Assembly (NCBI GenBank): GCA_005773635.1
Contig: SXHN01000079.1
Span: 100,568 to 146,159, forward strand
Direction: 5' to 3'
Origin: Actinomycetota bacterium
Lineage (GTDB): Bacteria; Actinomycetota; Acidimicrobiia; IMCC26256; PALSA-610
Length of the DNA stretch: 45,592 nucleotides
A program made the translations under genes and the position numbers. Within the stretch, counting starts at the first letter, position 1, and every line of letters starts with the position of its first letter. This document shows positions 19,567-41,293 of the stretch, piece by piece. Under the pieces are notes generated by a model that saw only the letters and a list, made by a program, of their open reading frames with translations, searched no databases and had not been told where the DNA came from.

Positions 19567-19639
19567 GAATAGCTTGCTGAAGGTTCGGATTGCATAAGTC
19601 GGTGGGCGTGAGCCACGATGTTTGAGTAGCTTCGTTGGT

Positions 19640-20251
19640 ATGACAGTTGTGCGAACCGTGGAAGAACTTGAGGCGTTGTACGACGTTCCTGTCGCATCGT
19701 CGATCACCAAAGAAATTGATCATCTCAGCGAACTTCATCGCCGTTACGTCGATGTTTCTCCGTTCGTGTTGATCGCAACCGCAGGGCCGGGAGGGTTGGA
19801 TTGTTCGCCGCGCGGTGATCCGGCCGGTTTTGTGCGCGTTGCTGATGAGCGTACCTTGATGATTCCTGATCGTCGCGGTAACAATCGGCTCGACACGCTG
19901 CGCAATATCGTCGTTGATCCACGGGTTGGTTTGCTGTTTCTGATACCCGGTATCGGGGTGACGATGCGTGTGAATGGCAACGCGCATCTCACCACTGATG
20001 CGGCACTGCGCGAATCGTTTGTCATCGCCGGTAAACTGCCTGCGACGGTGATCGTGGTGGAGATCACCTCGGTGTACACGCAGTGCCCAAAGGCATTGAT
20101 TCGAGCCAAGCTTTGGGATCCGGAATTGTTTCGCGACGCGTCAGAGCTACCGACCGTGGGCCAGATCAACGAGTTCATTACCAACGGAGCATTTGACGGC
20201 AAGGCCTTCGACGAGGCTTATCCCGAACGAATTCGCCAAACGATCTACTGA
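19640..20251 (+). CDS. PPOX-class FMN-binding protein (pyridoxamine 5'-phosphate oxidase-like)
   Basis: 203-residue split-β-barrel flavoprotein. Segments SSITKEIDHLSELHRRYVDVSPFVLIATAGPGGLDCSPRGDP and IPDRRGNNRLDTLRNIVVDPRVGLLFLIPGIGVTMRVNG are typical of the PPOX group named after MSMEG_1061/DR_2398. The ATG at 19640 is preferred over a TTG at 19622. Such proteins reduce or oxidise small molecules with FMN or F420; the substrate here is unknown. It is co-directional with soxR but separated by 150 bp holding the palindromic element. Confidence 0.87.
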   Translation: MTVVRTVEELEALYDVPVASSITKEIDHLSELHRRYVDVSPFVLIATAGPGGLDCSPRGDPAGFVRVADERTLMIPDRRGNNRLDTLRNIVVDPRVGLLFLIPGIGVTMRVNGNAHLTTDAALRESFVIAGKLPATVIVVEITSVYTQCPKALIRAKLWDPELFRDASELPTVGQINEFITNGAFDGKAFDEAYPERIRQTIY

Positions 20252-20311: not shown

Positions 20312-21382
20312 TCAGCGATGGAGAGGAATGATGTGATCTATCAGCGCTGCGTCTAGGTGGCCGTTCGGGTTGGGTGAGGGTTTGGCAGCCACGGCATTGG
20401 CCACTCGGAGTGAGGCGTCGTTGTGTTGGTCAACGATCAAATGCGCCTCCGAGGCCGCGGTGTGTTCTTCGAGAAATTTACAGACGAGTCTTACGCCGCT
20501 GCTGATGAATCCCCGGCCTCGATGCAGCGGATGACATGCGTAGGAAATGTTTGCTTCACCGCGCTTGACGTGTTCGTTGGAGAGATCACAATCGATGTAT
20601 CCAACAGATTCGTGTGCTCCGGCATCGATAGTAAAACACCACTTTGGCCCTAAACCGAAAGAGTCGCGCTGTTGTTGCAGAGCCTCGCGAGCGTGCTCCA
20701 AGCGCGATGCTTCGCTCATTGCGTGCCATGCCTCTCCCTGCCTCTCGTTCCAAAGCCAACGGATTTGGTCGGTGTCCTTCGCGGCGATGTCGGCTGCGAG
20801 GTCTTGCAGTTCGCGGCGGCGGATTGTTGTCTTGCCGTCTGAATAGGTGAGCGCAGGAACTGACCGTTTGAGATATAAATTCGTTCCACGCTGTTGTATT
20901 TCAACAAACATTGCGCGCTTGGCGACCGCTATCGAGGCAAGATTGGCGCGGTCAATGAGCAGCGTCGCAGTTGCAATCGTTGTGGACATTGCAAGGTGGT
21001 GCATGAGTAGTTGTAGCGAGCGTGTCGCGTAGCCGCTGCCGCGATGCTGCGCAAAAAGGCTGTAGCCAATGTTGACCTCATCGGTGCCGAGCCAGTCGCG
21101 ATCTTGGTCGTAGTCAATCCAGCCGACGAGTATGCCGTCGACTTCGATGCACGCGGTTGGTTGCGGATCATCTGACCCTTCCCCGAGCCAACGATGGAAG
21201 ATCTTGTCGCGGCCTTTGATCAACTTGTCGGTATCGTCGGGCGTCGCAGCCCGCAACATAACGATGCCGTCGGTGACACTCGGCGACGTTGCACGATTCG
21301 CCGTGGTTGAGTTTGGTTGGCGTGGTTTCGGCAAGGCTGGCGAGCCTAAGTGATCGACTCGCCATGCTGTTCCCGCGGACAA
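20312..21382 (-). CDS. Protein with two tandem GNAT acetyltransferase domains
   Basis: 356 residues, two GNAT folds in one chain. Domain 1 (about 40-175) has IVMLRAATPDDTDKLI, IEVDGILVGWIDYD, VNIGYSLFAQHRGSGYATRSLQLL. Domain 2 (about 185-345) has TIRRRELQDLAADIAAKD, ESVGYIDCDLSNEHVKRGEANISYACHPLHRGRGF. Both keep an R-G-x-G/F acetyl-CoA loop. The listed start is a TTG; an ATG at 21259 would cut into the first strand, so an upstream start is preferred but uncertain. It lies 76 bp downstream of the phosphotransferase gene on the same strand; together they resemble small-molecule modification genes. Confidence 0.82.
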   Translation of the reverse strand: MSAGTAWRVDHLGSPALPKPRQPNSTTANRATSPSVTDGIVMLRAATPDDTDKLIKGRDKIFHRWLGEGSDDPQPTACIEVDGILVGWIDYDQDRDWLGTDEVNIGYSLFAQHRGSGYATRSLQLLMHHLAMSTTIATATLLIDRANLASIAVAKRAMFVEIQQRGTNLYLKRSVPALTYSDGKTTIRRRELQDLAADIAAKDTDQIRWLWNERQGEAWHAMSEASRLEHAREALQQQRDSFGLGPKWCFTIDAGAHESVGYIDCDLSNEHVKRGEANISYACHPLHRGRGFISSGVRLVCKFLEEHTAASEAHLIVDQHNDASLRVANAVAAKPSPNPNGHLDAALIDHIIPLHR

Positions 21383-22541: not shown

Positions 22542-23414
22542 ATGTTGAGCGAACTTCAAGGCCTCCGAGACGAGTTACGCACCCTGGTGGTGGATCTCGA
22601 TGTCGATCGTATCGATGGGGTGGCGGTCAGAAATCTGGTGGTGGTCTTCGCCGAAGTTGAACGGATCGCGGCGGCAGGAAAGATGTTGGCGATGGGTCGA
22701 GTGGATGCGACGGGGTCGTGGGCGAATACGGGTGCGAAGTCGCCAGCGGATTGGTTAGCGAACGTTTCGGGTACGGGGATCGGCCCGGCGATTGAGACCG
22801 TACAGTTGTCGCGGTCGTTGGAGAAACTCCCTGAGACGGAATCATCGGCACGGCAAGGCACGTTGTCATTGCCGCAGGCGTCTGCGGTGACGCGTGCCGC
22901 GATCGAAGCCCCGGCTGATGAAAAGAAACTGTTGAGTGCCGCGCAACGCGGTGGGCTCACCGAGGTGAAACGCGAGTCGGCGCGGATCTTGGCGGCGGCG
23001 CGTAGCAGCGAGGAGGAGACTGCGCGTGCGAAGCGGCAACGGTCGGCGCGGTCGTTGGCCTTTTGGATCGATGATGAAGGGATGATGTGCGGGAAGTTCC
23101 GACTTGAACCAGTAGTTGGCATCGCGTTTCGTCGACGTGTCGAAGCCGACGCCAAGAAATATTTTGATATTGCTCGCAAGCAGGGTGTGCGCGAGACCCA
23201 GGAGAACTACGCCGCGGATGCCCTCATCGGTCGCACCAACCCATCGCCGGATGTGGGAGGAAGTGCAGCGCTGACGACGGTTGCGATTCCAGGTCCTGAA
23301 AGGCCCGGCGCGAATGTGGACCTCATCGTGGTCGTCGACCTCGCACCGTTGCTGCGGGGTGAGCTACGTGATGGTGAACGGTGCGAGATCCCGCTCCAAC
23401 CGCCTGACGGTTGA
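22542..23414 (+). pseudogene. 13E12/DUF222 repeat protein lacking the HNH endonuclease end
   Basis: 290 residues match the DUF222 (REP13E12) N-terminal domain: ERIAAAGKMLAMGRVDATG, SPADWLANVSGTGIGPAIETVQLSRSLEKLP, LPQASAVTRAAIEAP, LAFWIDDEGMMCGKFRLEPVVG. In intact members a GERCEIPGxGPVPV segment follows and leads into a C-terminal HNH nuclease. Here the frame ends GERCEIPLQPPDG and stops, and no HNH coding is seen in the next ~50 bp before the HTH gene. So the nuclease part is deleted. 13E12 proteins are often multicopy and mobile in actinobacteria. Confidence 0.8.
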
Positions 23415-23460
23415 GGAATTGACCCTTAGGTTGGGCTGATAGACAGCCGAAAAATGGGAG

Positions 23461-23997
23461 GTGACATCTGATCCGACTCAACTTCCGCCCGAGCGTCTTG
23501 GTTATCTCTTGCGCGGTGCGCGCGAGAATGCGTCATTGACCCCTCGCAAAGCTGCGAAGCGTCTGGCGATCAGCGGCAGACGCTTGAAGCGCATCGAAAA
23601 GGGCGGCGAGCAGGCCGATCAGCCCATCATTGACGCGCTGCTGAGTGCCTATGAGATTGACGTCAACCAATTGATCCCTCAACGCCGAGCGATTGGCATC
23701 GACGGGGCAAAGTTGTCGTTGGAGCATGGAAACTCATTGGGTCATACTGCTCGATCATCTGAGCACGATGACCTGATTCGTGGGTATCTCACGATGATTG
23801 CTGTGGCTCGAAAGGACGGCACAGTTGACGGATTGTCATTGCGCAAAAGCGATGTGCAAGCGTTGGCTGATGCGCTAGGAACCGACGAGACGACGATTAC
23901 GAATCGAATTGTTGCTCTGCTCGGGTGTGATGAGACCGAAGCGTCAGCGCTGAGCTATTTGATGTTGTCGTACGTCAGCGGTTCGTCAGCTGCGTAG
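23461..23997 (+). CDS. Helix-turn-helix (XRE-like) protein
   Basis: 178 residues. An N-terminal HTH_3-like domain (LGYLLRGARENASLTPRKAAKRLAISGRRLKRIEKGG, then EIDVNQLIP) is joined to a C-terminal helical domain (GTVDGLSLRKSDVQALADALGTDETTI). The GTG start is inside a perfect GGAGGTGA Shine-Dalgarno-like string (23456-23463), so the usual spacing is absent; no other start lies in frame before the HTH. Its last 12 bases overlap the convergent DJ-1 gene. Target genes unknown. Confidence 0.75.
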   Translation: MTSDPTQLPPERLGYLLRGARENASLTPRKAAKRLAISGRRLKRIEKGGEQADQPIIDALLSAYEIDVNQLIPQRRAIGIDGAKLSLEHGNSLGHTARSSEHDDLIRGYLTMIAVARKDGTVDGLSLRKSDVQALADALGTDETTITNRIVALLGCDETEASALSYLMLSYVSGSSAA

Positions 23998-24765
23998 CGA
24001 GCCGCTCGTCCGCGGCAGCTCAGCGAGCCGCTCGATAAGGCGACGTGCGAAGAGGTACGCGTCACCGGGCCAGCGGGCCGAAACGTAGCGACCGTCTTCG
24101 ACGACGAATGCGCCGGTGTCATCCGTTGCTGATCCGCGACGAGTCAGGGTGCGCGGCCCAACCTCAAATTGTCGGCCGGGTGCTTGCAGCACTGCGCGCA
24201 CCTCGTCTTCGACGTATGTCGGGTAGGTGCGGTAGTAGCGCCCGAGTTTCCAGGCTGTGAGAGCGTACGCGCTGCGTTCCATGTACTTGGGCAAACACGT
24301 TGTGCGTGTTTGCGCGATGACCGACCGTCCAGTGGATTGATCGATACTGCGCGCCAGCACGATGACGCCATGGCAGATCGCGGCAACGGGCCGATCGAGC
24401 GCCCAAAACCTTGAGACTTGCTGATGCAAGGTTTCGTTGGCGAGATATTGCCGCATGCGCGGTGCGTGTCCACCTGGGAGCAGCAACGCGTCGTAGTGAC
24501 TCACGTCGACTTTCTCCCAAGATTTTGGAGAATTGAACGACGCATCTTTGTGCAGCGATGCGTAGAACGCGAGCGCTTCCTTGGCCGCACCTAATTGCCC
24601 GAAGATGACCCCTGCGATGAGGCGCTGATCAGCAGCAGGAGCGAAACCTCCGGTCTCAGTGGCGAAAACAACATCGTGGCCAGCATCTCGCAGCAGCTTC
24701 CACGGCACCGACACCTCAGTGACATCGAAATCGTGATCCGGCAGGGGGATGAGGACGCGCGCCAT
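23986..24765 (-). CDS. DJ-1/PfpI family protein
   Basis: 259-residue class I glutamine amidotransferase-like protein. RVLIPLPDHDFDVTEVSVPWKLLRDAGHDVVFATE starts the fold, ALLLPGGHAPRMRQYL holds the Gly-rich loop, and AAICHGVIVLARS contains the nucleophile Cys in the elbow. Relatives are glyoxalase III/Hsp31-type chaperone or protease-like proteins. Last gene of a minus-strand operon, 6 nt after the LLM oxidoreductase gene. Confidence 0.88.
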   Translation of the reverse strand: MARVLIPLPDHDFDVTEVSVPWKLLRDAGHDVVFATETGGFAPAADQRLIAGVIFGQLGAAKEALAFYASLHKDASFNSPKSWEKVDVSHYDALLLPGGHAPRMRQYLANETLHQQVSRFWALDRPVAAICHGVIVLARSIDQSTGRSVIAQTRTTCLPKYMERSAYALTAWKLGRYYRTYPTYVEDEVRAVLQAPGRQFEVGPRTLTRRGSATDDTGAFVVEDGRYVSARWPGDAYLFARRLIERLAELPRTSGSLRS

Positions 24766-24771
24766 GCCTCG

Positions 24772-25713
24772 CTACTTGCCCGTGAGCTCAGCAACAATTG
24801 GCGCGAACGCTGACGCTCGATCACCGGGAATCACGATGTAGTTGTATCCCCACCGTGATCTGCGACGCTGAAGCTGTTCGACAATTTGGGTGGTGTTGCC
24901 GATGAGCACTAGCGGTGAGTCCACAACGTTTTCCGGTGTCGTCTCGAATGCGCCGGCTAACGCTCGCGCTAGACCGCCGCGATCTTCGGTGACCTCGGCG
25001 ATCGAGAGCCACGCATTGATTTCTTTGCTCGAGAGGCCATCTCCGGCGGCCGCTCGCACCCATGCGACCTTTTGGTCGATGCTCTCTGGGAGCGCATCTT
25101 GCGCAGCGGCGGTGTCGATGGTGCCCGAATGAATCGATGCGTTGACGCCGATGATGTCGGCGTGTGTCGCAGCGTATTGGAGCACCCGCTTTCCTCCTCC
25201 GCCGATGAGAAATTTTGGACCTTCGGGCTTGAAAGATTTTGGAGTGCCGTTCAGTTCGGCAATTTGGTAGTGGTCGCCGGCGAAGCTGAACGGTCCGTCA
25301 CTGAACAAGCCCCGTAGCACCGCTGCGTGTTCGATCATGCGGTCGACCCGGACCTTCGGCGACTCCATCGTGATCCCCGATTGTTCGTAGTCGAGGCGCT
25401 TCCAGCCCGCACCGAGCCCCACCTCAAGGCGCCCTCCTGACATTTGGTCGATTGACGCCAACTCGCGAGCCAAGATGGCGGGATGCCGGAAGTCGCAGTC
25501 GAGGACGAGCGGACCGACGTTGAGTTCGGTGGTTACCGCAACTGCCGAAGCCATGGCCGCTATGGGTCCGAGCCCCTCATCGAAGTGGTCGGGAACGAAC
25601 ATCGTGCAATAGCCGAGGGCTTCAACGTGGCGGACCGAGTCGAACCAGTTCAAGTGCTCAAATGCCCCACGCAATTCGAGACCGAAGCGAAATGGTCGTT
25701 CAACAATTGTCAT
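24772..25713 (-). CDS. LLM-class (luciferase-like) F420-dependent oxidoreductase
   Basis: 313 residues, bacterial-luciferase TIM barrel. The start MTIVERPFRFGLELRGAFEHLNWFD is at 25713; the longer upstream frame overlaps the NTF2-like gene. Features are YCTMFVPDHF, LNVGPLVLDCDFRHPAILARELASID, SGGRLEVGLGAGW and FLIGGGGKRVLQYAATHADIIGV, which fit the MSMEG_2516-type F420 family. Likely uses reduced F420 or FMN. It sits 8 nt after the NTF2-like gene. Substrate unknown. Confidence 0.88.
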   Translation of the reverse strand: MTIVERPFRFGLELRGAFEHLNWFDSVRHVEALGYCTMFVPDHFDEGLGPIAAMASAVAVTTELNVGPLVLDCDFRHPAILARELASIDQMSGGRLEVGLGAGWKRLDYEQSGITMESPKVRVDRMIEHAAVLRGLFSDGPFSFAGDHYQIAELNGTPKSFKPEGPKFLIGGGGKRVLQYAATHADIIGVNASIHSGTIDTAAAQDALPESIDQKVAWVRAAAGDGLSSKEINAWLSIAEVTEDRGGLARALAGAFETTPENVVDSPLVLIGNTTQIVEQLQRRRSRWGYNYIVIPGDRASAFAPIVAELTGK

Positions 25714-25721
25714 GCGATGCT

Positions 25722-26186
25722 CTAGAGGTCCTTGCTCAAACCGAGCGCTTCGGGCGAGGCCGCAAGTTGGCCGCCCGCGGCGAGCCAACGCATGATTACT
25801 TCTTCGCCCTGCTTCGGGTTGTAGATGTCTTCTTGACGAGAAAATAATCCGTCGCCGCAGTATTCGTAGATCGTGACGCAACCGAAGCGATAGATCTCGT
25901 CGCCGTCGGCAGGATCGGGAAAAACCTGCCACGGGTAGAACACCACTTTGTTGCCGTCGATGACATGCCACTCCACTGGGAATTGCATCATTGGCACCGG
26001 AGCCATGAGTTCATTGATCTTTTTCTTGATCGCGTCGCGGCCTTTGATGATGCCGTAGTTGCATTCGTGCCATTCGCAATCTACGGAATGCAGATCGGCC
26101 CAGAGATCCCAGTCGCCTGCGTCGCCCGCGGCACCGATTCTGCGCCAAGCCGCCTCTACCTCGTCGCGTGCAAAAGTGTGAGCCAT
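25722..26186 (-). CDS. NTF2/SnoaL-like protein A
   Basis: 154-residue cone-shaped α+β protein of the SnoaL/NTF2 superfamily (ARDEVEAAWRRIGAAGDAGDWDLWADLHSVDCEWHE, QFPVEWHVIDGNKVVFYPWQVF, FGCVTIYEYCGDGLFSRQEDIYNPK). Superfamily members isomerise, cyclise or hydrolyse small molecules, or only bind them. It is clearly a paralogue of the next upstream gene: both share EVEAA, WHVIDGN/WFTIDGN and QEDIYN. Start ATG at 26186, 2 nt from its paralogue. Acts with the LLM enzyme by operon context. Confidence 0.85.
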   Translation of the reverse strand: MAHTFARDEVEAAWRRIGAAGDAGDWDLWADLHSVDCEWHECNYGIIKGRDAIKKKINELMAPVPMMQFPVEWHVIDGNKVVFYPWQVFPDPADGDEIYRFGCVTIYEYCGDGLFSRQEDIYNPKQGEEVIMRWLAAGGQLAASPEALGLSKDL

Positions 26187-26188
26187 CG

Positions 26189-26617
26189 CTACAGCGTTCC
26201 CCCGGCCGCGAACCACTTGCCCATGACTGCTTCGCATTCCTTCATGTTGTAGATGTCTTCTTGGAGCGCAAACTTGCCATTACCCCCGTACTCAAGAACG
26301 GTGACCCCCGCGAATTCGAAGCCACCGGCGCGGCCGTCGACGTTGGGAAGCACGTTGCGCCACTTGAAGATGACGCGATTCCCGTCGATGGTGAACCACT
26401 CCATTGGGTACTCCCACTTGGCGTCGACGAGCGGCGCCATCGTGGGAATGATCCAAGCTTTGATGGCTTCCGGGCCGACGAACGTTCCCATCTCGTGTTC
26501 GACGTACACGCCGTCGGGCGTAAACAACTCGCAATACTCAGCCCAGCGTTGCTGGTCGTTGAGTTCTCGTTGTTTGCGAAACGCGGCTTCTACTTCTTCG
26601 CGGGGATATTCAGTCAT
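26189..26617 (-). CDS. NTF2/SnoaL-like protein B
   Basis: 142 residues from the ATG at 26617 (MTEYPREEVEAAFRKQRELNDQQ). SnoaL-like fold with FTPDGVYVEHEMGTFVGPEAIKAW, EYPMEWFTIDGNRVIFKWRN, FAGVTVLEYGGNGKFALQEDIYNMKECEAVM. The tandem arrangement with protein A suggests duplication and possibly a heteromer or two steps of one pathway. The Crp-type regulator gene ends 43 bp upstream on the same strand. Confidence 0.85.
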   Translation of the reverse strand: MTEYPREEVEAAFRKQRELNDQQRWAEYCELFTPDGVYVEHEMGTFVGPEAIKAWIIPTMAPLVDAKWEYPMEWFTIDGNRVIFKWRNVLPNVDGRAGGFEFAGVTVLEYGGNGKFALQEDIYNMKECEAVMGKWFAAGGTL

Positions 26618-26660
26618 AGTCCCACGCAATCACGCGCAGCGTGAGTACGTCAAACCAGCA

Positions 26661-27326
26661 TTACGCCGTGGCGCGAAGTTCGAGGGCTTCTCGATCGTTG
26701 ATGCAGTACCGGGTGCGGCCGTCGACTGTGAGCCATCCCAGTTTCACGAACGTTGCGATCGCCTTGTTGACACGCTCACGCGATGCTCCAACCATCCCCG
26801 CAAGTTCTTCTTGGGTGAGCGGCATTCGGAATTCATCTTCTCCTGCTGAAACCTGCAAGAGCCTTTTTGCGGTACGGCCAGTGACGTCGAGGAACATTGC
26901 ATCCGAGAGCGCTTCGTCAGTGGCTCGAAGGCGCCGGCTCAAGATGCGCACCACTGCCCACAGCACTTCGGGGCGGTTGTGAAGCACGCGCTTGACGTCT
27001 TCGTAGCCAACAGAAATCAAGTGCACAGTGCCAAGGGCACGGGCGTCGGCCGATCTTGTGCCGCCATCAAACAAGGGGAGTTCGCCGAATAACGCTCCTG
27101 GTCCGAGCACCGCGACCACCGACTCGCGGCTGTCAGTTGCCTTCACGGTTATCGCAACGCGGCCTGAGAAGACGATGAAGAGCCGGTCGGCCGCATCACC
27201 TTGCTCACAGATCAATTCGTTACGCCGATACTTCGACAGCGCGGTCCTGCCGCTCAGTTCGCTGAGCAGATCGGGTGGCATTTGGCCAAAGAGGTCGGTT
27301 TGGTCGAGCACGCGGCTCCTGGTCAT
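26661..27326 (-). CDS. Crp/Fnr family transcriptional regulator
   Basis: 221 residues. A cyclic-nucleotide-binding β-roll (residues ~15-120, ICEQGDAADRLFIVFSGRVAI, GPGALFGELPLFDGGTRSADARAL with the phosphate-binding GELPLF...RSA cassette) is followed by a dimer helix and a winged HTH (LTQEELAGMVGASRERVNKAIATFVKLGWL). The GELxxF...RxA cassette is consistent with cAMP binding, as in actinobacterial Crp/GlxR. It is the first gene of a minus-strand series running into the NTF2/NTF2/LLM/DJ-1 genes, so it may also act locally. It could alternatively be the global regulator placed here by chance. Confidence 0.92.
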   Translation of the reverse strand: MTRSRVLDQTDLFGQMPPDLLSELSGRTALSKYRRNELICEQGDAADRLFIVFSGRVAITVKATDSRESVVAVLGPGALFGELPLFDGGTRSADARALGTVHLISVGYEDVKRVLHNRPEVLWAVVRILSRRLRATDEALSDAMFLDVTGRTAKRLLQVSAGEDEFRMPLTQEELAGMVGASRERVNKAIATFVKLGWLTVDGRTRYCINDREALELRATA

Positions 27327-27419
27327 CGTGAGTTCCTTACCCAGTTAAGCGCGAACGTAGTCAATGTCACACTCTTCGATCGGCTGGTTTAGGGGCGAAG
27401 TCAAGGTCTTTGTCGAGAG

Positions 27420-28484
27420 ATGCCGACAAAAGGGACAATGTTTGTTGAAGTGACTCGGCTGTTTTTCGTCGTCTTTTGCACTGCTGCAGGATTTTGGCTT
27501 ACCCGCGACCTGAGTGGCGCTCGCGACGCGGCGCAAGGAATTGGGGGGATGGTTGGGTGCCTCATCGGCTACGTCGGAGGCGGCGTGCTTGGTCGACTCC
27601 TAGAACATGCGGCCGGCGAGGTCGAGGATCGTGCCGACTGCCTGCCGGCCGCCCAGGTCGTTGGCGGCGCTCTCGGGGCGTTGCTGGGGGCCATTGCCGG
27701 GCTCATAGCGGCGGCTCCGCTGCTGTTACTGATACCAGTGCGGATTGGTGCGGGCGTCGTTGGCCTTGTGGTGTGGTGCGCGATGTATCTGGGGATGCGC
27801 ATTGTCGGTCAGCGCAGTGTCGCTGTACTGGAGATGTTGGGTCTGTCAACGCGACCGCTCGTGCGCTCTGAGCCGTTCGACGCTCGCGACGGCATGCTGG
27901 TCGATACTTCGGTGCTCATGGACGGGCAGTTGCTCACGTTGGCGCAGACGGGCTTGCTTGGCGCTGATCTCTTGGTCGCGCGCTTCGTGCTTGACGAACT
28001 CCAAGGTTTCGCCGACGCGGCCGACCCGGTCAAAGCACGGCGAGCTCGTGGTGGACAGGAAGCACTTGCAGAGTTGAGTAAGAACGGCGTGATCCAAGTT
28101 CGGATACTCGATGATGCCTTGCCGCAGTACAACGCAGTGGACGCGAAGCTCATCGCCCTCGCCCGGCGCCTTGAGTTGCGCCTGCTCACCAACGACGGAG
28201 CGTTGGCTCGAAATGCCGAGCTGCAAGGTGTGCCCGCCTGCAATTTGCGCCGCCTCGCGTGCGATCTTGCACCCGCGGTGCTACCGGGTGATCCTTTGCT
28301 GTTGCAACTCAGTGGAGTTGGGCGCCAACGCGGCCAAGGGGTTGGGCATCTCGAAGATGGTTCGTTGGTTGTCGTCAATGGGGGAGAGGAATTCGTGGGT
28401 GGCGAACCAATCGAATTGCGGGTCACCTCGGTAGTGCCGACAACGGTCGGGCGTGTGGTCTTTGCAGCCATCGAGGCGGCCTAG
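27420..28484 (+). CDS. Membrane PIN/TRAM domain protein (YacL-like)
   Basis: 354 residues. Three to four N-terminal membrane helices (LFFVVFCTAAGFWL; GGMVGCLIGYVGGGVLG; ALGALLGAIAGLIAAAPLLLLIP) precede a PIN nuclease-like domain (GMLVDTSVLMDGQLL with Asp, VLDELQGFAD, AVDAKLIALARR, LLTNDGAL) and a C-terminal TRAM RNA-binding domain. Normally placed between carD and ispD in actinobacteria and firmicutes. Here ispD follows but is separated by sigma-factor debris. An ATG at 27438 is an alternative start. Confidence 0.92.
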   Translation: MPTKGTMFVEVTRLFFVVFCTAAGFWLTRDLSGARDAAQGIGGMVGCLIGYVGGGVLGRLLEHAAGEVEDRADCLPAAQVVGGALGALLGAIAGLIAAAPLLLLIPVRIGAGVVGLVVWCAMYLGMRIVGQRSVAVLEMLGLSTRPLVRSEPFDARDGMLVDTSVLMDGQLLTLAQTGLLGADLLVARFVLDELQGFADAADPVKARRARGGQEALAELSKNGVIQVRILDDALPQYNAVDAKLIALARRLELRLLTNDGALARNAELQGVPACNLRRLACDLAPAVLPGDPLLLQLSGVGRQRGQGVGHLEDGSLVVVNGGEEFVGGEPIELRVTSVVPTTVGRVVFAAIEAA

Positions 28485-28543
28485 TGCTGCGGGCAAGGTT
28501 CCCGACGGAACCGTAAGCGCGTTGGCGGTGCACCTGCGTCAGA

Positions 28544-29093
28544 ATGGTTCTGATGCTCACCGAACGGCAATTGGTCGCATTATCGCGCTCGGGTGACACA
28601 GCCGCGTTTGGAACACTGGTGGACCGGCACCGCGTGCTCGCGCTTCGGCTGGCGTATGCCATCGTTGGTGATGGAGCCGAAGACGCAGTACAGGATGCGT
28701 TTTTGAAGGCCTTTCGGAAGCTGGCTTCGTTTCGCGACGACGCAGACTCCGCTCCCTGGATCTACACAATCGTGCTCAACGAGAGCCGCAACCGACGTAG
28801 ATCGCGGACTCGCCGCCAGCGGCTCGAGCTCAGGGTGCGGCCGCTTGGGGATTGCACTGTCGAATCGGCCGAAGATTCCGCCGCGGCGGGGCCATGCAGC
28901 AACAGCGAGTCTGCGCGGCGGTTGCGCGACTTAATGAACGCGACCGCGAAATTGTGGCGTTGCGATTCTTTTTAGGTTTGAGCGAAGCTGAAACCGCAAT
29001 TGCAATTGGGCGGCCGATCGGTACTGCAAAATCGCGCGTGTCGAGAGCATTGCGCCGATGGCCCGGACCCTGGACGCACTGTCACGGCGCTAA
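28544..29093 (+). pseudogene. ECF sigma factor, broken by two frameshifts
   Basis: Region 2 is in the first frame (AEDAVQDAFLKAFRKLASF, PWIYTIVLNESRNRRRS). Region 4 continues in a second frame from about 28890 (ARLNERDREIVALRFFLGL, then SEAETAIAIGRPIGTAKSR). The expected end (MARTLDALSRR then TAA at 29091) is in the third frame. Each switch fits a one-base deletion in the same direction, near 28880-28930 and 29050-29060. No intact sigma protein can be made unless the sequence has errors. It is embedded between PIN/TRAM and ispD. Confidence 0.8.
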
Positions 29094-29695
29094 GAATTTT
29101 CGACAATCACAAAGATGTGCGCTCAGTTCGCGCCAACTTGTCGTTGCCGGGTGACGTTGAACCGGAAGCTTTTTCGGTCGATGGCAAGCGGTTGTTCATA
29201 CTCAGCCACGACGGCGACTCATACCGTGTGCAATCCATTGAACTAGCAACGGGCGAGCGCGTGGATGTGGGGGATCGTGACAAAACCATCCAGCCAGAAA
29301 CGATGTATGGCCAACCGGCTCAGGCAGTTTTTGATCATCGGCGTGAGCTGCTTGCGACGTTGTATCGCGAACCAAACGATTACTTCCATCCGGCTTTCGT
29401 ACACGTCTTGAATCTTGCAACGGGTTGGTCGTACTGCGTCGATCTGGAAGCTCCGTTCGGAACTGGGACCCTTGGAGAAGAGGTGATCCGGGTGACTCCG
29501 AAGAACACAATTCTGGTTGGCGGAAAAGGAGTCAACCGCACTGCTGAAATCGAGTTTGAAGCTGTGTTGGACCCCATCCGAACAGTCGGGATGAAGTTCC
29601 ACGAGCGCACGTTGACCCGCGAGGACGATGGGTTTCGGACGTGGGAAGGTTTCCGCTCCGTGATTGCTCAAGTTACGGACCACGCCGACGGTTGA
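29094..29695 (+). pseudogene. 5'-truncated β-propeller (WD40-like) protein remnant
   Basis: The frame carries blades of a secreted propeller protein typical of actinobacterial sigma-factor loci: NLSLPGDVEPEAFSVDGKRLF, YRVQSIELATGERV, GQPAQAVFDHRRELLATLYRE and FVHVLNLATGWSYCVDLEAPFGTG. There is no signal peptide, no upstream blades and no credible start, and the homologous part begins right after the sigma gene stop. A deletion that removed the anti-sigma gene and the propeller N-terminus is the simplest reading. Confidence 0.7.
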
Positions 29696-29717
29696 TCGAA
29701 GCCCTATCGTTCGGCGT

Positions 29718-30356
29718 ATGACCGCGCCGGTGTGGACAATTGTGTTGGGTGGCGGTAGCAGTGCCCGTTTCGGCCGCCCCAAGCAATTCGTCGATCTGGG
29801 TGGGTGCAGCGTGATCGGTCGCTCGGTGGCAACCGCGTTGCAAATCAGCGACGGTGTCGTCGTTGTACTCCCGCCGGATGCCGTGTGGAATGGGCCCGAA
29901 GCCGTGATTCGTGTCGCAAACGGAGCCACTCGTTCGCAGTCGGCGCGTAACGGACTAGCCGCCGTTCCATCGGATGCCGCGATAGTGATCGTGCATGATG
30001 GCGCCCGACCACTCGCGACTGAAGCGCTGTTTCGGGCCGTGATTGATGCCGTAGTGCGTGGCGCAGATGCCGCGATTCCTGCTTTGGCGATGAGCGACAC
30101 GGTCAAACGCGTTGATGGTGCGTTGGTTGTGGAAACTGTCGTTCGCGAAAATTTGGTGACCGTTCAGACGCCGCAGGCCTTTCGCGCTGGTGCTTTGCGC
30201 GGAGCCCACTCCGCGGGTCACGACGACACCGACGATGCGGCGCTGGTCGAAGCAAGGGGAGGCCGAGTAGTAATCGTGAACGGCGAACAACGCAACATCA
30301 AAATTACCGTGCCCGAGGATCTATTGGTCGCCCATGCTCTGTTGGAGAATCTATGA
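29718..30356 (+). CDS. ispD: 2-C-methyl-D-erythritol 4-phosphate cytidylyltransferase
   Basis: MEP-pathway enzyme making CDP-methylerythritol from MEP and CTP. 212 residues from ATG 29718 (MTAPVWTIVLGGGSSARFGRPKQF, the nucleotide-binding loop). VIVHDGARPLATEALFRAV, DTVKRVDG, LVTVQTPQAFRAGAL and DDAALVEARGGRVVIVNGEQRNIKIT are diagnostic. The stop overlaps the ispF start (ATGA), so they are coupled. Confidence 0.96.
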   Translation: MTAPVWTIVLGGGSSARFGRPKQFVDLGGCSVIGRSVATALQISDGVVVVLPPDAVWNGPEAVIRVANGATRSQSARNGLAAVPSDAAIVIVHDGARPLATEALFRAVIDAVVRGADAAIPALAMSDTVKRVDGALVVETVVRENLVTVQTPQAFRAGALRGAHSAGHDDTDDAALVEARGGRVVIVNGEQRNIKITVPEDLLVAHALLENL

Positions 30357-39785: not shown

Positions 39786-39861
39786 GCGGCCGACGATAAC
39801 CGCTTCGGCACGGGTTTATTCCTTTTGGTAGCCTGCGCCGCAATAACAACAGCACAACGCG

Positions 39862-39988
39862 CTCATCCAGAGCGGCTGAGGGACAGGCCCTTTGACGCCG
39901 CGGCAACCAGCTTCTGCCCGATGGAACGGCTCCGACCAGCCCATCGATATAGGGAAGAAGCCAGGTGCCAATGCCTGATCGATGAGAG
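39862..39988 (+). ncRNA. SAM-I (S-box) riboswitch
   Basis: The conserved S-box elements occur in order: P1 5' strand CTCATC (39862-39867), CAGAGCGGCTGAGGGACAGG, CCCTTTGACGCCGCGGCAACC, then AGGTGCCAATGCC and closing P1 strand GATGAG (39981-39986) followed by AGAG. It lies 70 bp upstream of the ThrC-family gene. Downstream hairpins (AGCGG/CCGCT at about 39996-40009; GCGCTCT-ACGG-AGAGCGC at 40014-40031) and the AGAGGA at 40041-40046 could form the expression platform, probably acting on translation since no T-run is present. Confidence 0.95.
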
Positions 39989-40057: not shown

Positions 40058-41293
40058 ATGGCACACGTAACCGGTTTGCGATGTCGCGAATGCGGCCACG
40101 AATACGAGATTGCTCCGATCTACACCTGTGAATGGTGTTTCGGTCCAGTCGAAGTGGTGTACGACTACGAAGCGATTAAGGCATCGATCTCGCGAGAAAA
40201 AATCGCTGCCGGACCCGACAACATTTGGCGCTACGCCGACTTGCTCCCCGTGGAAAGTGACGCGGCGATCAACCTTGGTGCCGGATATACGCCGCTTGTG
40301 CGGTGCGATCGGCTGGCCGAAGCGCTTGGGCTTGGCGAGGTTTGGATCAAGAACGACACATTGAACCCAACGAACTCATTCAAAGATCGCGTCGTTGCGG
40401 TGGCGTTGAGCAAAGCACTTGAATTCGGATTCAAGACGGTCGCCTGTGCATCCACGGGTAATCTTGCGAATTCGGTTGCTGCCCATGCGGCGCGCGCAGG
40501 CTTGAAGAGCTACGTGTTTGTGCCGAGCGATCTCGAAGCCGGCAAGATCGTTACAACGTCGGTGTACGGCGGCAATGTCGTTGCCGTGAATGGCAACTAC
40601 GACGACGTGAATCGGCTCTGTGCAGAACTGGCAGGCACATATCCGTGGGCGTTTGTGAACGTGAATGTGCGGCCGTTCTATGCCGAAGGTTCAAAGACGC
40701 TTGCCTTTGAAACCGCGGAGCAACTTGGCTGGCAAACTCCCGATCACGTAGTTGTGCCGATAGCGAGTGGCTCGTTGTTGACCAAGATCGATAAAGGTTT
40801 CGCCGAATTGTTCAAGGTGGGTCTGCTCGACGAAGAGCCAAAGGTAAGGGTGAGCGGCGCGCAGGCGCTGGGGTGTTCGCCGGTGGCCGAGGCGTATCTC
40901 ACCAACAGTGACACGATTAAACCAGTGAAGCCGAAAACAATTGCCAAATCGTTGGCGATTGGCAATCCTGCAGATGGTTATTTTGCGCTGGATGTGGTCC
41001 GCCGGACGGGTGGTTCAATGTGCGCGGTAACCGACGACGAAATTGTTGATGGCATCCGGCTCCTCGCTCGCACCGAGGGCATTTTCGCAGAGACTGCAGG
41101 CGGAGTAACCATTGCGACGTTGGCCAAGCTCGCTCAAAGTGGAGTTGTGCGCCCCGATGAACGCGTCGTGGCCTACATCACGGGGCACGGTTTGAAAACC
41201 CTCGACGCAGTCGAAGGCGTCGTTGGGCCGACCGCAACGATCGCACCGAATCTTGAAGCTTTCCAAGCCGCGTTCACTATTGAGGAGCAGTAA
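40058..41293 (+). CDS. Threonine synthase-family PLP enzyme; likely MetM-type homocysteine synthase
   Basis: 411 residues, fold-type II PLP enzyme. It has an N-terminal zinc ribbon (CRECGHEY ... CEWCFG), the pyridoxal lysine in NPTNSFKDRVV, phosphate loop STGNLANSVAAHAARAGL and IASGSLLTKIDKGFAEL, GAQALGCSPVAEAY, and ETAGGVTIATLAKL. By sequence alone it is ThrC (O-phosphohomoserine to threonine). Context argues for MetM: in Streptomyces a ThrC homologue with a downstream sulfur carrier converts O-phosphohomoserine to homocysteine. Here a SAM-I riboswitch precedes it and the sulfur carrier gene overlaps its stop (TAATG). Without knowing whether a second thrC exists the role stays open. Confidence 0.8.
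   Translation: MAHVTGLRCRECGHEYEIAPIYTCEWCFGPVEVVYDYEAIKASISREKIAAGPDNIWRYADLLPVESDAAINLGAGYTPLVRCDRLAEALGLGEVWIKNDTLNPTNSFKDRVVAVALSKALEFGFKTVACASTGNLANSVAAHAARAGLKSYVFVPSDLEAGKIVTTSVYGGNVVAVNGNYDDVNRLCAELAGTYPWAFVNVNVRPFYAEGSKTLAFETAEQLGWQTPDHVVVPIASGSLLTKIDKGFAELFKVGLLDEEPKVRVSGAQALGCSPVAEAYLTNSDTIKPVKPKTIAKSLAIGNPADGYFALDVVRRTGGSMCAVTDDEIVDGIRLLARTEGIFAETAGGVTIATLAKLAQSGVVRPDERVVAYITGHGLKTLDAVEGVVGPTATIAPNLEAFQAAFTIEEQ

Follow-up and report, generated by a model that had tools for sequence, protein, structure and literature searches.

A probable lineage-specific cassette of two NTF2-fold genes and a luciferase-like oxidoreductase gene behind crp in an actinobacterium of the class Acidimicrobiia

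The subject of this study is a 45,592-nucleotide (nt) stretch of DNA (hereafter the window), positions 100568-146159 of its contig in the 3.56 Mb, 125-contig genome of an actinobacterium of the class Acidimicrobiia, and in particular a minus-strand block in which the gene of a Crp/Fnr-family regulator (crp) is followed by genes for two NTF2-fold proteins (NTF2a and NTF2b), an oxidoreductase of the luciferase-like monooxygenase superfamily (LLM) and a DJ-1/PfpI protein. NTF2a, NTF2b and LLM are probably a minor metabolic accessory specific to this lineage, rather than part of a five-gene pathway. Our best explanation, which we hold tentatively and which falls a little short of being probable, is a genus-level cassette placed behind a housekeeping crp gene, with carbonyl or enone reduction carried out by LLM and an isomerase-type partner provided by the NTF2 proteins. 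The cassette is probably functional, and the evidence for a common pathway is modest. If this explanation is true, it offers a concrete starting point for a substrate search on an LLM enzyme of family TIGR03621, which has few known substrates and of which a single genome of these actinobacteria can carry as many as five copies. All the protein families involved are known, and it is their combination that is uncharacterised in the literature searched: the search found no paper on TIGR03621, none on SnoaL proteins with F420 or LLM enzymes, and no report of an NTF2 heterodimer paired with an F420H2-dependent reductase.

The gene block and its conservation in the congener

The first gene of the block is crp (26661-27326; 221 amino acids (aa); Pfam cNMP_binding and HTH_Crp_2). 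It is followed by NTF2a (26189-26617; 142 aa) and NTF2b (25722-26186; 154 aa), which both pass the SnoaL_2 cut-off (Pfam SnoaL_2 at 9.7e-9 and 4.7e-9, respectively), and by LLM (24772-25713; 313 aa; Pfam Bac_luciferase), which matches TIGR03621 (F420_MSMEG_2516) over residues 8-310 with 283.0 bits against a cut-off of 213.15 and is a predicted F420H2-dependent reductase. The last gene (23986-24765; 259 aa) encodes a DJ-1/PfpI protein of the ThiJ_like type (PF17124, 1e-36), and its final 12 nt overlap the end of a convergent helix-turn-helix (HTH) gene on the plus strand (23461-23997). With open reading frames (ORFs) and starts taken directly from the sequence, all five genes are on the minus strand and the gaps are 43 nt (crp/NTF2a), 2 nt (NTF2a/NTF2b), 8 nt (NTF2b/LLM) and 6 nt (LLM/DJ-1), exactly as the first-pass annotation had described for five genes on one strand, and its family assignments are borne out by Pfam and NCBIfam.

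Tight gene spacing is by itself a frequent feature of bacterial genomes. More than chance is needed to explain that the order and strand of four of the five genes are kept in the sole congener compared (G001; the genus is represented by two genomes), despite near-saturated synonymous sites. In fact, G001 has crp, NTF2a, NTF2b and LLM in the same order, with identities of 95, 85, 83 and 74%, and with junctions of 97 nt, -4 nt (an overlap) and 28 nt. Across the four genes the NG86 estimates are 0.06-0.22 for nonsynonymous divergence (dN) and 1.0-2.4 for synonymous divergence (dS), giving a dN/dS of about 0.03-0.09; the four-gene block is under strong purifying selection and its silent sites are near saturation.

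The surroundings of the block are different in the two genomes. In G001 no DJ-1 gene is present in the block, and LLM is followed by a PPOX-type gene (Pfam) and then by a GNAT-like gene (by eye), which, compared by eye, are the counterparts of window genes 19622-20251 and 20312-21382; nothing in the end of the G001 contig matches the window segment that carries an APH gene, the gene at 22542-23414, the HTH gene and DJ-1. On the other side, a PIN gene and a sigma factor gene separate crp from ispD in the window and both are missing there in G001. The four-gene order has thus survived while both flanks changed.

The search for signals between 23400 and 27500 found no sigma-70-type promoter, and the terminator-like sites there (5, against a shuffle mean of 4.2) are not in excess. 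The cassette would probably be expressed by read-through from crp, by a weak promoter of its own, or by both. Within the crp-NTF2a gap, the window and G001 have in common only a short sequence ahead of the NTF2a start; an apparent inverted repeat seen by eye in the window gap was set aside and nothing was drawn from it, the two gaps being of different length. One further row in the alignment of this gap duplicates the G001 sequence and was given no weight.

Distribution of the genes among related genomes

The comparison covered 100 genomes for the NTF2, LLM and DJ-1 genes, 61 for crp and 58 genomes of the order for NTF2b; many of them are fragmented, so that a linkage of DJ-1 could be missed. 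Flanking genes were called by a composition-based caller that recovered 33 of the 33 hand-picked window genes and called 51 in total; the same 33 genes were also its residue-composition training set, and their recovery is no independent check. Calling the longest ORFs was dropped owing to antisense artefacts.

The two NTF2 proteins share 40% identity over 139 aa, so that "paralogous", as they had been called in the first-pass annotation, is a fair description. In a tree of 22 family members, the NTF2a sequences (3 rows) and the NTF2b sequences (13 rows) fall into separate groups, so the pair represents two old lineages brought together and not a recent tandem duplication. NTF2b is present in 7 of the 58 genomes of the order (E<=1e-48), and it is also carried, with 63-74% identity, by five additional named contigs, of which two bear the label Myxococcota (L034 and L038 in the contig list are G001 and G044 again and are not among the five). 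Ten NTF2b loci lie outside the genus. In seven of these no LLM match lies within reach (L035, L036, L037, L039, L040, G010 and G012, two of which, L037 and L039, are short), and the neighbours, where checked, are unrelated genes such as selO, purK or a diaminopimelate-dehydrogenase-like gene. In the genomes of the order the neighbours of NTF2b include histidine kinase, CoA-transferase or diaminopimelate-dehydrogenase-like genes, and on the named contigs SelO or PurK genes. In all three genomes of the distant genus g27, NTF2b is followed by an alpha/beta hydrolase gene on the opposite strand and then by a TIGR03621-type gene, which lies within 1.5 kb of NTF2b on the same strand; this gene has 45-46% identity to the window LLM, against 60-74% for true orthologues. 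Altogether, NTF2 and LLM matches within 3 kb of each other occur in 5 of the 100 genomes, namely the window's genome, G001 and the three of g27 (compared by eye). The orthologue of NTF2a in G012 is unlinked and on a different contig from the NTF2b of that genome; its identity to the window protein (86%) exceeds that of the G012 Crp (80%), a similarity that would fit transfer. Among viral contigs no NTF2a relative was found.

Orthologues of LLM occur at 60-63% identity in eight further genomes of the 100, and in the six flanks read (L048 and L051-L055; G011 and G013 were left out) none has an NTF2 gene beside it. At two of these loci, from one genus (G003 at L054 and G009 at L053), the LLM orthologue lies behind a P450 gene, assigned by Pfam in one case and by similarity in the other, and ahead of two more LLM genes. 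The neighbourhood survey did not find the five-gene linkage of the first-pass annotation in any other genome, nor the three-gene version beyond the genus.

The crp gene has a different distribution. A single-copy orthologue (one match each, E<=1e-40) is present in 48 of the 61 genomes, and 30 of the 48 loci were fetched. A dienelactone-hydrolase gene adjoins crp in 24 of the 30, and in 21 of the 30 a disA-type gene is there too (both families were checked by Pfam in one example each). In the other six loci, the window and G001 carry the NTF2 genes, and L066, L074, L079 and L083 show neither neighbour (the L074 contig ends 36 bases past crp). Outside the genus (28 loci), crp has neither an NTF2 nor an LLM match near it. 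Throughout the order (L063-L090), its surroundings are conserved: one flank holds dienelactone hydrolase and disA, the other a CarD-like gene (by eye), a PIN-type gene, ispD, ispF and cysS. Because it is single-copy order-wide and its neighbourhoods outside the genus are free of NTF2 and LLM genes, crp is a housekeeping gene; Crp would be the global regulator of the order, with the cassette placed behind its gene in this genus, where the order normally has the convergent dienelactone-hydrolase gene.

Fold and relatives of the NTF2 proteins

The fold was modelled for NTF2b, using nine relatives in the alignment, with a mean predicted confidence (pLDDT) of 88. The model shows the cone-like alpha+beta fold of the NTF2-like superfamily and matches structures of the limonene epoxide hydrolase (LEH) type and of ketosteroid isomerase (KSI) with Z of about 15, a root-mean-square deviation (rmsd) of 1.9-3.5 over 114-127 residues and 10-17% identity. 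At E 0.01, phmmer retrieves no solved relative with the single NTF2a and NTF2b sequences; only a profile search does, matching the LEH 5aif at E 4e-5. In KSI, the general base is Asp38/40 and the oxyanion hole is made by Tyr and Asp. Among the invariant acidic and aromatic residues of NTF2b are Glu41, Glu72, Trp73, Asp120 and Tyr122, a set compatible with an enzyme; Glu41 lies in a strand where, judged by residue numbering, a KSI-type base could sit. The NTF2-like superfamily is described as taking in both enzymes and ligand binders (PMC3924330), and the KSI/LEH fold of NTF2b alone shows no function.

A natural fusion of two SnoaL_2 domains was observed in G076, a genome of the same class, as a 308-aa protein (L093:6850-7776). 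Near it are a flavoprotein resembling 3-ketosteroid-1-dehydrogenase (similarity only, since its best model scores 375 bits where the cut-off is 789) and two proteins resembling flavin-containing and Baeyer-Villiger monooxygenases (FMO/BVMO), which are below the cut-offs. Another family member on the same contig, with 56% identity to NTF2b, lies 12 nt behind a P450 gene. FMO proteins bearing an NTF2-like domain have been published (PMC7570161). In the tree the fused domains pair with each other (93/92 support, on long branches), which suggests that the fusion arose independently. Its context is a weak hint of chemistry on rings or ketones.

Competing explanations and comparison with known systems

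Position speaks for Crp as the regulator of the operon, since crp is the first gene in the run and lies 43 nt upstream of NTF2a. We consider a dedicated, self-regulating Crp switch very unlikely: besides the order-wide distribution of crp and its different conserved neighbour, on account of which Crp was rejected as a specific regulator, no TGTGA-N6-TCACA-like site (up to 2 mismatches) is found in 23179-29902, and the CRP-type sites of the whole window (6) are fewer than in shuffles (mean 18.6). The first-pass annotation had proposed DJ-1 as a possible member of the route, with a glyoxalase-like step for a reactive aldehyde; in this reading DJ-1 would clear an aldehyde produced by the LLM and NTF2 enzymes. 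The single strand and the narrow gaps of the five genes agree with one regulated pathway, as do the residues of DJ-1, which has the Cys131-His132 nucleophile elbow and, as Glu17, the conserved Glu of DJ-1/PfpI proteins. However, the G001 block has the PPOX-type and GNAT genes in its place, and DJ-1 orthologues (E<=1e-25), found in 7 of the 100 genomes including the source genome, are in the other six never on one contig with NTF2 or LLM matches; neither gene is in the flanks of the four loci inspected (L045, L049, L056 and L057). A five-gene pathway is thus hardly credible, and DJ-1 was probably appended in the source genome as a separate accessory gene behind LLM. What stands of the earlier pathway reading is the co-directional NTF2a-NTF2b-LLM unit conserved in the genus, for which a role in small-molecule redox or isomerisation chemistry is plausible; the membership of DJ-1 and the regulatory role of Crp are not supported. 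More generally, genes closely spaced behind a housekeeping regulator should not be taken for a regulated pathway before their neighbourhoods in other genomes have been surveyed.

A coincidence has more to recommend it. In this case NTF2a, NTF2b and LLM would be unrelated accessory genes that landed behind crp in the ancestor of the genus and share transcription with no common pathway, which we regard as quite possible, if not probable. Several facts favour it or otherwise weigh against a functional cassette: the orthologues of the three genes are patchy and lie apart in other genera, with NTF2a and NTF2b of G012 on different contigs; the block is shown by two genomes only, whose kinship could account for the common order; no complete known catalytic set was identified in NTF2b; and the residues that form the pepstatin pocket of PepI, a relative of LLM discussed below, Tyr122, Gln229 and Gln289, are Trp104, Ser237 and Pro296 in LLM. 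On the other hand, coincidence does not readily explain why G001 keeps the order and the coupled NTF2a/NTF2b junction though both flanks are rearranged, nor why NTF2b is again close to a (different) TIGR03621 gene in every g27 genome. The cassette that we prefer would work as follows. LLM, as a class I TIM-barrel F420H2 reductase, would transfer a hydride to a small hydrophobic compound, at a carbonyl or a conjugated double bond, and NTF2a and NTF2b, translationally coupled, would most likely serve jointly as a small isomerase or hydratase, or as a ligand-holding partner, presenting or rearranging the compound of LLM. A stronger version seems unlikely to us: the NTF2a-NTF2b pair would be an obligate heterodimeric isomerase/hydratase passing its product to the F420H2-dependent reductase, and the G076 fusion would have arrived at the same pairing independently. 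The two G076 domains group together rather than with NTF2a and NTF2b respectively, and for the pairing they offer only an analogy.

Other features were observed in the window. An ORF of 290 aa on the plus strand (22542-23414) looks, by eye, like a shortened DUF222/HNH-type (13E12-like) protein and has no Pfam match at 1e-5. A gene for a sigma factor of the extracytoplasmic function (ECF) type, on the plus strand at 28544-28975 and 28852-29154, is apparently split: one frame, of 143 aa, contains Pfam Sigma70_r2, and a second, overlapping frame has a stretch that by eye resembles region 4; the gene is probably broken or frameshifted. A SAM-I riboswitch on the plus strand (39860-39988; Rfam RF00162, 69.9 bits) lies directly 5' of a threonine synthase gene (40058-41293, plus strand; TIGR00260 above its cut-off), and control by S-adenosylmethionine of threonine and not methionine synthesis may merit attention.

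The closest known systems differ from gene to gene. The best solved relative of Crp over its full length is 3d0s, followed by entries such as 4byy and 4cyd; we take 3d0s to be the CRP of Mycobacterium tuberculosis and 4byy the GlxR of Corynebacterium glutamicum. With these regulators Crp shares the full-length architecture, and like a global regulator it is single-copy across the order, being known here from sequence. DJ-1 has a solved relative in 4ofw (7.5e-18), presumably the plant DJ-1 homolog D of Arabidopsis, and does not reach the NCBIfam cut-offs for either PfpI or DJ-1 glyoxalase III. As for LEH, the Glu-Arg-Thr-Asp stretch of 5aif, which we take to hold Arg99 and Asp101, faces Tyr-Pro-Trp-Gln in the NTF2 profile alignment, which is weak there; the LEH catalytic triad is described as Asp132-Arg99-Asp101 (PMC3734700).

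The nearest solved chains to LLM are those of PepI (9g64, 9gm0 and others; E 3.6e-40), with 34% identity over 274 aligned positions. PepI is described as an F420H2-dependent ketone reductase that acts on beta-keto intermediates in pepstatin biosynthesis, with His62 as the catalytic proton donor (PMC12081711). His62 aligns with His43 of LLM, which would be its proton donor, and Glu126 with Asp108. The LLM superfamily holds users of F420 and of FMN alike (PMC6279831), and the source genome has cofD, above its cut-off, consistent with the use of F420 by LLM. A structure of LLM predicted without an alignment (pLDDT 33) was not used. Unlike the context of PepI, no window ORF, judged by eye, encodes a nonribosomal peptide synthetase or polyketide synthase, and the substrate of LLM would differ from that of PepI because the pocket residues are replaced. 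Our best guess is that LLM is an F420H2-dependent ketone or enone reductase acting on a substrate other than that of PepI.

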